Positions 15,493-28,627 of a stretch of 45,651 nt of DNA are shown here, in pieces; within the stretch, counting starts at the first letter, position 1; each line of letters begins with the position of its first letter. Both the position numbers and the translations under genes were made by a program. Under the pieces are notes generated by a model that had not been told where the DNA came from, did no database searches, and saw only the letters and a list, made by a program, of their open reading frames with translations. The stretch covers positions 1 to 45,651 of the forward strand of contig JAUNNH010000016.1 in assembly GCA_030531505.1 (NCBI GenBank), given 5' to 3'. The DNA comes from Eubacteriales bacterium. GTDB taxonomy: Bacteria > Bacillota > Clostridia > Oscillospirales > Oscillospiraceae.

Positions 15493-15591
15493 TCAGGCTG
15501 CCCGCTCCTGCAGCTGCGCATCGTCCAGCATGTCCTGGATGCTGATGGCATAGCCGCGCGTCGGATCATTCACGAACACATGCGTCACCGC
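15493..15591 (-). pseudogene. spoIVB: Detached 3' end of spoIVB
   Basis: Reading leftward, these codons give [18 protein letters not shown] and a further 14 residues before a TGA stop. This is the conserved SpoIVB C-terminus that follows the catalytic GMSGSP motif. The rest of the gene lies about 12 kb away at 27704-28627 and in the same orientation. The two parts join without a frame change through the shared 16-bp sequence at 15576-15591. As the sequence stands, this fragment has no start codon and is not expected to be translated. Confidence 0.93.
15576..15591. other. Left attachment site core
   Basis: ACACATGCGTCACCGC, identical to 27718-27733. On the outer side it continues the spoIVB reading frame; on the inner side the recombinase stop codon follows after 7 bp. 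The crossover dinucleotide cannot be fixed by eye. Confidence 0.9.
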
Positions 15592-15598
15592 ATGATGG

Positions 15599-17140
15599 CT
15601 ACACCTTGGGGAGCCTGGGATACAGGTCAATGGACACAATTCCGTCCTCTCCCCGGTAGTATTCGATCTTGTAAAGGATGGTCTTCAAGAGCTCGTTGCG
15701 CTCCTGTACGGTCAAATCGTCGTAGCTGGCCAATAGCGTCTCCGTCTGCGGAATGATCTCCTGCTGGCTGCTCTCGTCGGCCTCATACTGCGCCAGGCTC
15801 TGCTCGGCGGCGTCCTGCTGCTCCTGCAATTCATTGAGCTCGCGGGTCAGCTTGTCGCGGCGCTCCCCGAAGACCTCCAGGCTGTAGACGCCCTGTTCAA
15901 CCAGCGTGTAGGCCCGGTCAAGCTGGGCTTTCAGCTTCTCCCGCTCCGCCTCGATCCGTTCCAGCTGCCGCCGACAGTCCGCAATGTCCTCCGCAAAGCC
16001 CACGGTGTCCAGCTTGATCCTGTAGCCGTCCAGCCAGCTCCGCAGCGCGTTCAGGATCTCCGTTTCCACCAGCGCAAAGCTGGCAGAGCGGTTGGAACAG
16101 TGGTGCGGATTGGTACAGGCCACGCGGGGCGGGTTGGGGTGGTTCTTGGAGGACACCTTGCGGCCGATGGGCTTTCCGCACTCGGCGCAGACCATCACGC
16201 CGGCAAAGGGGTTGACAAGCTCGTACTGCTTTTTCACCTTCGGCCCCACGTAGTTCTCCTTGCGGATCTTCTGCGCCTTCTCAAAGAGCGCGTCGTCGAT
16301 CAGCGCGGGGTGGCGGCCCTCGTACAGATCGTAGTCCTCCACGTCCTTGCAGTGCCGGTAGCTGGACACCACATTGCCCCGCTCGTCCAGGCGCTTGGTC
16401 TCCTTCACGTAGCCGCGCTTGATTTTGCCGAGATAGACGGGGTTTATGAGAATTGCGCCCACCGTTGAGGCGTCCCATTTCCCGCCATGGCGCGTGGGGA
16501 TCTTGCGGTCGTTCAGCTCATTGGCGATCATCTTCGTGCCCTGCCGCCGGACGTACAGCTCAAACATCCGTCGCACAGTCTCCGCCTCCGCCGGGTTGGG
16601 CTCGAGCGTATAGCCTTTCTCGCCCTGCAGCTTCACCCGGTCATAGCCGTAGGGCGCGATGCTGCCGACGTATTTCCCTTCGCTGGCGGAGCTCTGACGG
16701 CCTCTGACGAGGCGTCGGTTGATGGTCTTGTACTCCCTCCGGCTCATGAACAGGCCGAACTCGAAATACTCCTGGTCAAATTCGTCCGTTGGGTCGTAGG
16801 TCTTGGCGGGTGTGATGATCTTGGTGTCGGAGAACTGAAAGATCTGACTGATGTATGCCTGATCCGCGCTGTTGCCGCGGGCCAGACGCTCCACATCGAC
16901 AACGAGCACCCCGGTATAGATCCCGGAAGAGACCTCTTCCAGCATCTTCTGTACCTCGGGCCGGGCGGCAATAGACTCGCCGGACACGACCTCCCGATAC
17001 ACCTTCGCAATATAGAATCCTCTGTCTCTCGCCAGTCTGTCCAGAATCTCCTGGTGCCGTTTCAGCGTTTCCTCCACACTCAAGTCCAGATAGTCACGGT
17101 CAAAGCGAGATTTACGGAGATATTCGATATATTGCTCCAT
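15599..17140 (-). CDS. Large serine recombinase (integrase of the spoIVB element)
   Basis: 513 residues from ATG 17140 with a GGAGG site. The resolvase-type catalytic domain has the nucleophile Ser11 (YLRKSR) and the conserved VVDVERLARG arginine segment. A recombinase domain follows (about 160-290, with GYDR, GTKMIANELN and NPVYLGKIKRG), then a zinc ribbon (CAECGK ... CTNPHHC), then a long coiled coil (about 385-470) and a C-terminal tail. Large serine recombinases integrate and excise DNA between short att sites without host factors; excision usually needs a directionality factor. The gene is transcribed towards attL from its own strong promoter and appears intact. Confidence 0.96.
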   Translation of the reverse strand: MEQYIEYLRKSRFDRDYLDLSVEETLKRHQEILDRLARDRGFYIAKVYREVVSGESIAARPEVQKMLEEVSSGIYTGVLVVDVERLARGNSADQAYISQIFQFSDTKIITPAKTYDPTDEFDQEYFEFGLFMSRREYKTINRRLVRGRQSSASEGKYVGSIAPYGYDRVKLQGEKGYTLEPNPAEAETVRRMFELYVRRQGTKMIANELNDRKIPTRHGGKWDASTVGAILINPVYLGKIKRGYVKETKRLDERGNVVSSYRHCKDVEDYDLYEGRHPALIDDALFEKAQKIRKENYVGPKVKKQYELVNPFAGVMVCAECGKPIGRKVSSKNHPNPPRVACTNPHHCSNRSASFALVETEILNALRSWLDGYRIKLDTVGFAEDIADCRRQLERIEAEREKLKAQLDRAYTLVEQGVYSLEVFGERRDKLTRELNELQEQQDAAEQSLAQYEADESSQQEIIPQTETLLASYDDLTVQERNELLKTILYKIEYYRGEDGIVSIDLYPRLPKV

Positions 17141-17154
17141 GGGGGCCTCCTTTC

Positions 17155-17190
17155 TGTCGATATTATCTCAAATCGGCCACAGCCTGTCAA
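17155..17190 (-). promoter_or_regulatory. Sigma-A promoter of the recombinase, with a possible 0A-box
   Basis: TTGACA (17185-17190) and GATAAT (17162-17167) on the minus strand with a 17-bp spacer, directly upstream of the recombinase ribosome binding site. Next to the -10 box the plus strand reads TGTCGAT (17155-17161), one base away from the Spo0A box core TGTCGAA. The promoter is well supported; the 0A-box is a weak, short match. Confidence 0.8.
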
Positions 17191-17212
17191 ATTTTCGGGC
17201 GTGGCAATTTAT

Positions 17213-17241
17213 AGAAAAAGGCCGCAGATCATAGCTGCGGC
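17213..17241 (-). terminator. Intrinsic terminator between the 59-aa ORF and the recombinase
   Basis: GCCGCAG pairs with CTGCGGC across a 7-nt loop, followed on the minus strand by CTTTTTC. The stop codon of the upstream small ORF lies in the loop, so the recombinase depends on its own promoter. Confidence 0.8.
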
Positions 17242-26896: not shown

Positions 26897-27411
26897 GATT
26901 AGTACGATGGATAGATGGATGGATAGTTTACTCAGTATAATTCTATCAGTTTCTTTCTATCAGTCTTATTAGGGTATATGATTTTGGCTTCTTGATGTAA
27001 AAGTTTTTAACCTCCAGACTTCTGAAAAGCGGAAGTATAGAAGTTTCCTTTTGGGAAGTCTAGAAGTCCGGTTTAGGCGCAAAATTGCAGGACATAAATC
27101 CGATCCGGCTTGCCCTGGCCCTGCTTTTTTCGCTCGATCAGACCGATCCGCTCCAGCTCCGAAAGCAGCTTTCCGGCGGTGACGCGGCTGCAGCCGAAGT
27201 CCTCACAGATCTCCGCAACGGCGTAATACACATACGTCCGGCCTTCCCCGTCCCGCCAGCCGTTCCTGACGGACAGGCTCACGCGGTCGAGCAGCAGGGC
27301 AAACAGCAGCTTCCCAGCGGGCGACAGCGGGCGGTACTCCGTTCCTTTGACAAGCTGCCGGGGAACCCGGTAAAAACAAAAGCCCTCGCTCTGAAGGCGC
27401 AAATCCGTCAT
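26897..27411 (-). pseudogene. repA: Truncated replication initiator protein A (RepA_N) gene
   Basis: The first 112 codons (27073-27411) are open: a strong AAGGAGG site, then FYRVPRQLVKGTEYRPLSPAGKLLFALLLDRVSLSVRNGW, a helix-turn-helix segment CEDFGCSRVTAGKLLSELERIGLIERKKQGQGKPDRIYV. This is the RepA_N domain of plasmid- and ICE-type replication initiators, which are normally at least twice as long. After the TAA the frame continues as TGLLDFPKGNFYTSAFQKS, and then in another frame as EVKNFYIKKP...IERN and NYTE...TIHPSIHR, which looks like a decayed linker. The short protein may still be made, but initiator function is unlikely. Confidence 0.8.
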
Positions 27412-27423
27412 TAAAACCTCCTT

Positions 27424-27586
27424 ATACTAAACGCTAATAGAAATCAGACAATCTTTGCGGTCAGATTTGCGCCGTGCTTCGTTGGCGGCCTTGCAAATAT
27501 ATCTCCATTATTCGCTGCGGCCGCCGCCTCGCCTAGCACAAATATGCCTCGCAAATCTTTGCCTTCATCTTATTAGTGTTTAGTAT
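27424..27586. repeat. Inverted repeat pair upstream of repA
   Basis: ATACTAAACGCTAAT (27424-27438) recurs in inverted form with one change at 27572-27586. The pair encloses about 130 bp upstream of the repA start. It may mark the control region or origin of the element; this is inference. Confidence 0.6.
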
Positions 27587-27591
27587 TTGAC

Positions 27592-27634
27592 GCAGCAAGA
27601 GCGCAGCCGTGACGCCGCGCTCTTGTTGCTTTTT
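27592..27634 (+). terminator. Intrinsic terminator near the right end of the element
   Basis: GCAGCAAGAGCGC pairs with GCGCTCTTGTTGC (one mismatch) across a 12-nt loop, followed by five T residues on the plus strand. No plus-strand gene ends here, so it may stop transcription leaving the element towards the spoIVB region. Confidence 0.7.
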
Positions 27635-27703
27635 CCGTATTCTCGCTATTTTGATCGTAACTATGTATTTCGTGTGAGGAAACGCTTGGTTTGACCGTGG
27701 GTA

Positions 27704-28627
27704 TCATGTTGATACTGACACATGCGTCACCGCGCCGACGAGCTTGCCGTTTTGCAGGATGGGGCTCCCGCTCATGCCCTGCACGATGCCGCCCGTGCGG
27801 GCGCAGAGCTCCGCGTCCGTGACGGTGATCACCGCGTGGCGGCCCTCCCCGTCGCGATACAGGCGGCTCACAACGGCCTGATACTCCCGCGCCTCACGGC
27901 CGCTGACCGTAGAGAGGATCGTGGCCGGGCCGGGAGCGAGCTCCCCCGTCTGGACGAGCCGCCCACCGAGCGGCGCGGTCAGATGACCATAGATGCCGTG
28001 GTCCGTGTTTTTCTCCACGCGGCCGAGAACGCGGCCCACATCGGTGCAGCCGCTCAGCTCGCCGGGCGCGCCTGCCGCGCCCGGCACCACGTTCACGATC
28101 TCCGCCTCCGTGATCTGGCCGCCGCGCATCGGCAGCGTCCGCCCGTTCTCCTCATCGCTCACGCTGTGGCCCAGCGCGCCAAAGGCGCCCGTGGCCGGGT
28201 CACAGAAGGTGACGGTCCCGATGCCGGTGACGCCGTCGCGCAGCCACATCCCCAGCATCCACTGCTGTTCGGCGGAGAGCACCGGCCGCACGCGGACCGT
28301 GAGCTCCTTTTCCTTCCGCAGCAGCGAGAGCTGCGCCTCTTCACCGCCGAGCGCGCCGAGCGCGCCGATCAGGTCGGCGGCGCTCCCGACGGGCGTCCCG
28401 TTTATCGCCGTAACGAAATCGCCCTCCCGGATCCCGGCCTCCGCCGCCGGCGACCGGCTGCCCTCCGCTGTCTCCACCGGACCGACTCCGGCCACCAGCA
28501 CGCCCTCCGTGCGCAGCTGTATCCCCACGATCTGTCCGCCCACCGCGAGCTCCTGCGCCCAGGCGGCCGCGGGCAGCGCGCCGAGCAGCGTCAGGCAGAG
28601 CAGCGCGGAAATGGCTGATTTTTTCAT
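27704..28627 (-). pseudogene. spoIVB: spoIVB, 5' part, interrupted by the mobile element
   Basis: 307 residues from ATG 28627 (GGGAGGGAG site). Signal/anchor segment at residues 3-25, PDZ domain (about 30-120, with AGIREGDFVTAINGTPV), then the S55 peptidase domain with the catalytic His in GALGHSVSD and Ser in QGMSGSPI. SpoIVB is the forespore protease that crosses the membrane to trigger pro-sigma-K processing. The last native codons read [10 protein letters not shown]; the element then supplies SVST and a stop, replacing the 27 terminal residues found at 15493. Activity of the shortened protein is doubtful but not excluded. A CATACT box at 28667-28672 could be part of a sigma-G promoter. 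Confidence 0.93.
27718..27733. other. Right attachment site core
   Basis: ACACATGCGTCACCGC, identical to 15576-15591. To the right the spoIVB frame continues upstream ([11 protein letters not shown]-type codons read leftward); to the left is element sequence. Confidence 0.9.

Follow-up and report, generated by a model that had tools for sequence, protein, structure and literature searches.

What kind of element splits a sporulation gene in two, and where, if anywhere, does it leave again? The question is raised by contig JAUNNH010000016.1 of a Eubacteriales bacterium (assembly GCA_030531505.1), positions 1 to 45,651 of which were analyzed (the window). In it, spoIVB, whose product is made in the forespore in Bacillus subtilis, is interrupted by an element that carries a large serine recombinase (LSR). 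Our answer, to which we give a probability of roughly 0.6, is that the element belongs to a spoIVB-specific mobile family whose excision is programmed to occur in the forespore, with the LSR driven by sigma-A and a small protein, the putative recombination directionality factor (RDF), driven by sigma-G.

The split gene and its recombination module

The features on which the argument turns are the following.

27707..28627, minus strand (stop at 27704-27706): spoIVB 5' half, PDZ and S55 peptidase up to T-H-V, then the tail SVST (PF05580, 1.2e-57)
15493..15591, minus strand: spoIVB 3' piece, 32 codons ending QERAA and a stop (sequence reading)
27718..27733, plus strand: attL, the core copy bordering the 5' half (repeat search)
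15576..15591, plus strand: attR, the core copy bordering the 3' piece (repeat search)
15592..27733: element as excised, including one core copy, 12,142 bp (repeat search and flank joining)
15599..17140, minus strand: LSR, 513 aa (PF00239 and PF07508 over cut-off, PF13408 just under)
17162..17190, minus strand: sigma-A-type promoter of the LSR, TTGACA-N17-GATAAT, 21 nt before the ATG (consensus score 11/12)
17229..17408, minus strand: small gene, 59 codons from the aligned start ATT, candidate RDF (alignment with other elements)
17441..17470, minus strand: forespore (sigma-G)-type promoter, ACATT-N18-AATACTA, weak -35 (matrix score above the test threshold)
17468..17488: inverted repeat TGTGTCTCACGCTGAGACACA beside the -35, possible operator (sequence reading)

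The core, ACACATGCGTCACCGC, has two exact copies in the window, compared to a mean of 0.01 expected by chance from window shuffles, and the repeat is exactly 16 bp, because the bases flanking each copy differ on both sides. Scripted joining of the flanks gave a complete SpoIVB of 330 aa with the frame unchanged. As integrated, the 5' half reads through T-H-V into SVST and a stop, and the insertion swaps the last 27 residues of SpoIVB for this other tail. The LSR gene ends 7 bp from the left core, and the element has 50% G+C, compared to 60-63% in the flanks. The initial annotation had proposed a serine-recombinase element of 12.1 kb at a precise site in spoIVB, bounded by two 16-bp copies, with a recombinase gene abutting one end and flanks that rebuild SpoIVB without a frame change; its coordinates and every one of these particulars proved correct.

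The 5' half also matches TIGR02860 (1.5e-80, 271 bits, below the cut-off of 305), and no second spoIVB was found in the genome assembly (2.24 Mb, 74% complete). The LSR has the Resolvase and Recombinase (and zinc ribbon) domains and the catalytic serine of an integrase-type enzyme, the last in the motif YLRKSRFD, with S11 invariant among six aligned sequences. A sporulation gene that is split and can be restored in frame is what a developmentally excised intervening element presents; since the insertion is site-specific, however, the restorable frame alone does not argue for development.

The recombinase clade and its target

The joined SpoIVB was used to search 101 members of the host genus, and 66 gave a strong match, i.e., one stronger than 1e-70. 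The copy ends at residue 304-307, the junction seen in the window, in 14 of these 66 genomes, an occupancy of about 21%; of the other 52, 51 reach residue 317 or beyond and one stops at a contig edge. Relatives intact at the same place, for which the initial annotation had recommended a search, thus exist. Element genes lie beside 13 of the interrupted copies and an attP-type junction beside the remaining one (G016); G081, among the 14, also holds a full spoIVB from a different strain or species. In several members the detached 3' piece is beside an LSR, on the same contig in the window, G033, and G098, and on another contig in the others. We read the same break at 14 5'-side junctions, one of which runs into N letters after the break, and at 12 3'-side junctions, of which L055 repeats L039. 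G101 is a further carrier, and G003 shows the 3' side only. The 12 detached 3' pieces are as near the consensus as the intact ones (p=0.57; 30 intact rows, 4 of which repeat the same genome, with only tails of more than 18 residues collected), which is compatible with retained function and equally with young insertions.

An LSR scan, with one genome per species, gave 417 relatives, of which the best 80 were kept. Thirty of these with at least 55% identity, together with one viral contig, make up 31 clade loci, and in 29 of them the LSR end is joined to spoIVB at this site: the 3' piece follows within about 110 nt of the LSR stop in 21, and the LSR runs towards the 5' half in 8, including L103, where only about 10 codons adjoin. 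The exceptions are L083, where the 3' piece is 9 kb further on and the host's 5' half shows the same break, and L159, where the contig ends in the core. The clade loci are partly redundant: some are the same as genus members, L107 and L081 both represent the G050/G026 contig, and L159 duplicates L103. Neither tblastn nor a motif search detected a split spoIVB at the remaining 50 LSR loci of the same best 80, which are 40-44% identical; at one of them, L158, a SpoIVB match lies at a distance of 8.5 kb. In the tree, all 33 spoIVB-site LSR rows form a single clade (100/100) on a long stem with the 50 other LSRs outside it, in an analysis for which the program warned of long branches meeting and an unsettled bootstrap.

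By comparison of these loci, the clade is seen to integrate at the T-H-V codons, splitting spoIVB and replacing its last residues with another, usually short, tail. The attP arms are inverted repeats (ATCATG ... CATGAT), and therefore the crossover would be centred on the GT that follows CAT; we deduce that the core dinucleotide is this GT, within the conserved T-H-V codons. T-H-V has been called a PDZ ligand of SpoIVB, with its Thr393 put forward as a third catalytic residue (PMC12502668). Counting the window genome, a family-level survey (E<=1e-120) found the clade in at least 10 of 400 genomes and at least 7 of 106 genera, a lower bound because at most three candidates were scored per genome and G023, with a partial LSR, was missed. 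The exact attP pattern of the LSR-A group had no match in viral contigs. In a phage record (L211, 1-150), an attP-like palindrome directly behind the apparent end of a distant LSR (39%) suggests a circular form.

The family is also mobile. In the pairs of LSR-A hosts compared, the LSRs are 95-99% identical, compared to 52-65% for SpoIVB, and synonymous divergence (dS) is 0.16-0.45 for the LSR and 0.50-1.15 for SpoIVB; this comparison shows elements moving between species. In closer hosts the LSR is more diverged in dS than spoIVB (0.28 versus 0.15 for G127/G128, 0.37 versus 0.22 for G121/G122, and 1.16 versus 0.49 for G111/G116), and the nonsynonymous divergence of spoIVB is 0.010 for G127/G128 and 0.008 for G121/G122, which suggests that the site was emptied and refilled while spoIVB stayed conserved. 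Codivergence of element and host, as under vertical inheritance, was looked for and not found in the closest pairs, and the comparison therefore gave no evidence of prolonged selection acting on a split gene. The LSR scan, the dS comparison, and the tree thus replace the picture of a single domesticated element with that of one copy of a horizontally moving family.

Some spoIVB fragments are arranged in other ways. The detached 3' piece of G034 (L037, near 430-490) has a short tandem duplication near its end and a frame shifted after the conserved part. Extra copies of the spoIVB 3' end, from near the catalytic G-M-S-G-S-P codons, occur at L051 (G080:C3, 5804-10723), L052 (6780-6896), L058 (9296-9415), and L060 (3853-3993). 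Every one of them follows unrelated genes, and the junction sequence on the upstream side varies; G080 has four in a row, cassette-like, and the copies possibly stem from a second recombinase that targets spoIVB. G124 (L103/L200-L201) has an intact spoIVB 3.2 kb from an LSR junction that keeps about 10 spoIVB codons, and two more 3' pieces on another contig, one behind apparent tandem attP arms, an arrangement that is ambiguous between accretion, strain mixture, and misassembly. Coexistence of attB with attL/attR was considered in three genomes and not used: the G081 bin is a mixture of two strains or species (77-85% identity), the 3'-piece contig of G026 matches that of G050 at 99.9% identity along 10.7 kb, and G124/L103 is ambiguous as described.

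Promoters and the prediction of forespore excision

In every one of the 31 elements examined, the LSR is preceded by a small gene of about 59 aa (pattern ...VRIHDEYC...IVS-SYKRR); that of L104 was recovered by a later search, which also added L081, L100, and L107, and L110 starts inside the LSR. Within 1.2 kb upstream of the 50 outgroup LSRs there are just two weak matches to it (E 0.002 and 0.009), with five weak homologues elsewhere in the outgroup loci, and searches of Pfam, PHROG, and NCBIfam gave no meaningful family match. The aligned start codon is ATT in the window (17400-17408) and in 4 of 5 aligned LSR-A relatives, ATC in L041, and ATG in the other elements read. We infer that the small protein is the directionality factor.

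Promoters were read in 31 loci, with L081, L107, L110, and L159 excluded as truncated or duplicate. Directly before the LSR, a sigma-A site (TTGACA-N16/18-TATAAT, at least 10/12) is present in 26 of 31 loci (18 of 21 non-redundant), mostly 20-24 nt before the ATG and with none in L100 and L101, against a mean of 0.45 loci and a maximum of 3 over 60 Markov resampling runs; the same test upstream of the small gene finds a site in 1 of 31. The small gene is preceded by a forespore-type site, GHATA-N17/18-CATACTA, at a nearly constant distance: in 26 of 31 loci (16 of 21 when redundant loci are removed, p=7e-9 versus uniform placement) the best such site, whatever its score, falls within a single band of 24 nt.

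The spoVA and small acid-soluble spore protein (SASP) genes are sigma-G-dependent. A sigma-G matrix trained only on host spoVA promoters, with a threshold passed by 3% of 1120 random windows, passes 24 of 31 small-gene upstreams, compared to 7 of 47 outgroup LSR upstreams (p=5e-8); as controls, it passes 0/20 spoIVA upstreams, 1/31 LSR-proximal 105-nt gaps, and 16/20 spoVA regions, its training ground. An earlier matrix built on spoVA and SASP sites passes 25/31, versus 1.6 (maximum 5) by Markov resampling and 3/31 on the reverse strand, and 7/47, 1/47, and 8/46 in three outgroup windows. In the first consensus scan of 29 loci, z was 10.4 for sigma-G, 6.8 for sigma-E, 2.3 for sigma-F, 1.0 for sigma-A, and -0.4 for sigma-K, the sigma-E excess probably arising from shared letters, and the sigma-G consensus reaches at least 11/12 in 9 of 31 loci, versus 0.8 by Markov. 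The spacers between half-sites have a mean identity of 0.27 (13 loci chosen for having the site), i.e., they are unrelated, and therefore the promoter pattern is not plain shared ancestry. The spoVA region of the window genome itself has GAATA-N17-AATACTA. A sigma-E matrix trained on host spoIVA, a sigma-E target (PMC5025042), passes 6/31 LSR operons, 4/47 outgroup upstreams, 11/20 spoIVA, and 3/20 spoVA regions.

The nearest known arrangement is the skin element in sigK of Clostridioides difficile, where the LSR CD1231 is expressed from a sigma-A promoter and the 72-aa RDF CD1234 is under sigma-E and SpoIIID, which restricts excision to the mother cell (PMC5025042). Our elements share with it an LSR element in a sporulation gene, a sigma-A recombinase promoter, and a small separate protein with a sporulation promoter, a predicted one in our case; they differ in that sigK is a mother-cell gene, whereas here the target is spoIVB, the predicted promoter type is that of the forespore, and the family is mobile and widespread. 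In C. difficile, spoIVB is sigma-G-regulated (PMC11392383). From the forespore-type promoter of the small gene and this skin-like arrangement in a sigma-G-regulated gene, excision is predicted in the forespore. The initial annotation had remarked that SpoIVB acts in that compartment and that this made the location unusual; with the promoter of the small gene added, the forespore becomes the predicted place of excision.

The element would then behave as follows. The vegetative LSR alone would keep it integrated. With sigma-G active in the forespore, the small protein would be made and the LSR would excise the element, rebuilding spoIVB in the very cell that needs SpoIVB, and the circle would remain within the spore. 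Once the spore has germinated, the factor would be absent but the LSR still produced, and the circle would reintegrate or be lost. We entertain more tentatively, as a possibility short of an even chance, germ-line reconstitution of the gene, in which every maturing spore would lose the chromosomal element under sigma-G, carry the circle, and have it reintegrated into spoIVB at germination by the vegetative LSR.

The hosts keep their sporulation genes, and the nine spoIVB-less relatives mostly lack SpoVA and SpoIVA. In 57 chosen genomes (intact and spoIVB-less groups at least 90% complete, the interrupted group taken at any completeness), SpoVA-type genes (PF03862) are present in 14/14 interrupted, 16/16 intact, 1/9 SpoIVB-less, and 18/18 other carrier genomes (interrupted versus SpoIVB-less, Fisher p=2e-5), and SpoIVA (PF09547) is present in 9/14, 14/16, 1/9, and 18/18, respectively (p=0.03). 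The 18 other carriers were drawn from 27 clade-locus hosts, and one of them, G124, carries an intact spoIVB as well. Of 28 carriers searched for SASP genes (PF00269), 23 had them, and the window genome has two SpoVA matches and a full-length Spo0A candidate.

Several points weigh against forespore excision. Its steps from the promoter onwards are predictions, and excision in the forespore risks loss of the element. In the window, the small gene has no ATG, GTG, or TTG at its aligned start, a GTG ten codons downstream being a possible alternative, and its forespore-type site, with a weak -35, scores 11.2 bits against a threshold of 10.0; SpoIVA and SASP searches of the window genome, 74% complete, gave no match. 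Seven of the 31 loci are below the sigma-G threshold (five pass neither matrix; L098 and L106 pass sigma-E only), and four pass both matrices. The outgroup upstreams exceed the 3% expectation (7/47, and 8/46 at 330-495 nt with the earlier matrix). The full sigma-G consensus is rare upstream of spoIVB itself (1/53 at 11/12 or more), although several regions carry CATACTG. The sites used to train the sigma-G matrix were themselves the top consensus matches in spoVA regions.

Competing readings and known systems

The window element carries these further genes.

18223..18681, minus strand: stand-alone Spo0A C-terminal (DNA-binding) domain protein (PF08769, 1.6e-24)
18855..19043, minus strand: cysteine-rich KTR protein (PF14205, 1.5e-20)
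19050..21263, minus strand: solute-binding-protein-like, variable cargo (PF01547, 9.7e-6)
21836..22393, plus strand: sigma-70 family factor, variable cargo (PF08281, PF04542)
22374..23171, plus strand: protein overlapping the sigma gene, no Pfam family (Pfam scan)
23244..23585, minus strand: NikA/MobC mobilisation accessory protein (PF21983, 1.2e-10; PF05713, 4.6e-8)
24089..24415, minus strand: ParE-type toxin of a toxin-antitoxin pair (PF05016, 3.6e-11)
24390..24677, minus strand: Phd/YefM-type antitoxin (PF02604, 1.7e-10)
24858..26687, plus strand: Schlafen/AlbA, RecG-C-like, and RRM protein, cargo (PF04326, PF13749, PF00076)
27073..27411, minus strand: RepA_N replication-initiator domain protein, 112 aa, adjoining attL (PF06970, 3.4e-20)

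Cargo varies across the family, whose members resemble integrative and mobilisable elements (IMEs), integrative and conjugative elements (ICEs), or prophages. The window copy is IME-like, having both an integrase (the LSR) and a mobilisation gene (NikA/MobC), together with the toxin-antitoxin pair and RepA_N; no relaxase was found among the 14 element open reading frames scanned, shorter and overlapping frames being outside the scan. The 27.5-kb element of G106 is ICE-like, with a coupling protein, RepA_N, and a weak TraG-type ATPase match, and L103/L159 lie within a 42.5-kb record classed as viral in IMG/VR.

An ordinary site-specific mobile element is the rival that survives best, and we consider it unlikely yet in need of serious weighing. 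Excision would be rare or tied to transfer or phage induction, the insertion would be young and transient, the promoter patterns would be fortuitous or otherwise used, and carriers could not sporulate until a chance excision. Conjugation or mobilisation genes fit this account, as do the disagreeing histories of element and host, close hosts carrying more diverged elements as if insertions turned over; it sits poorly with the deep target fidelity of the LSR clade, the occupancy of about 21% in one genus (14/66), and a two-promoter module kept at fixed positions with unrelated spacers.

It is improbable that the truncated SpoIVB, T-H-V plus tail, still functions and the element is merely tolerated. 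The Ser, the His, and T-H-V (with the proposed catalytic Thr393, PMC12502668) do all lie upstream of the break, but 51 of the 52 uninterrupted genus members reach at least residue 317, the other being at a contig edge, and all 14 copies that end at 304-307 adjoin either element genes (13) or the attP-type junction (G016). An AlphaFold model of the intact SpoIVB of L103 is uninformative on the lost tail: its final 20 residues were predicted with no confidence, the other eight rows being truncated. Slightly less credible again is that the small protein is something other than a directionality factor, its forespore expression serving re-integration, repression, or transfer; it matched no known family, and so has no link to a known RDF, but its own sporulation-type promoter beside a constitutive LSR mirrors CD1234/CD1231 (PMC5025042). 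Skin-like excision in the mother cell, the site of the cases described (PMC4191935, PMC5025042), is the least probable reading, given the forespore origin of SpoIVB set out above for both model species, the mere 6/31 loci that pass the sigma-E matrix, and a sigma-K consensus with no excess.

As to persistence of the circle under forespore excision, the RepA_N and toxin-antitoxin genes may keep it in the spore. The ParE/Phd pair (window 24089-24677) is little changed while other cargo differs, the antitoxin being 96-99% identical where full-length. The element of G033 carries a NACHT NTPase with an SNaCT7 domain (L040, 5605-7458), a possible defence gene. The Spo0A C-terminal domain protein was considered as a sporulation sensor and rejected, because relatives about 80% identical lie on other contigs in genomes with and without the element, the domain is reported to be enriched in mobile genetic elements of gut Firmicutes (PMC6907783), and the window shows no enrichment of the 0A-box core. 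Such stand-alone proteins (window 18223-18681, L218-L223) are 70-80% identical and occur also away from spoIVB in the host genus.

Among other known systems, SP-beta in spsM likewise has a serine recombinase, a 16-bp core, and a split sporulation gene that is rebuilt, but it was demonstrated to excise in the mother cell alone; SP-beta and the other elements of that report, being limited to this compartment, stay in the spore genome (PMC4191935). The gin element in gerE, vfbin in spoVFB, vrin in spoVR, and yin in yabG also intervene in sporulation genes (PMC5595907, PMC10747680, PMC4191935); their targets differ in being described as mother-cell-expressed or SigK-linked, not forespore genes. 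IMEs and ICEs of gut Firmicutes (ImmeDB) carry serine integrases as well, with no spoIVB target mentioned in the available part of that report (PMC6907783). A full-text literature search, with most subscription papers and all preprints outside its scope, found no paper joining spoIVB with attB, or spoIVB with serine recombinase, excision, and sporulation; spoIVB with integrase and prophage gave one paper, unrelated by title, and no title concerned a spoIVB integration site. The device is thus of a known class, and what is new is its target gene, its mobile and widespread family, and, as a prediction, the opposite compartment.

The family offers LSRs with a deeply conserved attB and candidate directionality factors, and a "broken" spoIVB in a genome does not necessarily mean an asporogenous organism. 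The sporulation-linked excisions described in the papers cited take place in the mother cell, which dies, and the germ line therefore never loses the element; a forespore-excising family, if true, would be an exception to this rule and would have to secure its own survival across the spore stage. The sporulation of many uncultured gut bacteria would then depend on a mobile element, and germ-line reconstitution, if it occurs, would amount to a lysogeny cycle locked to the spore cycle.

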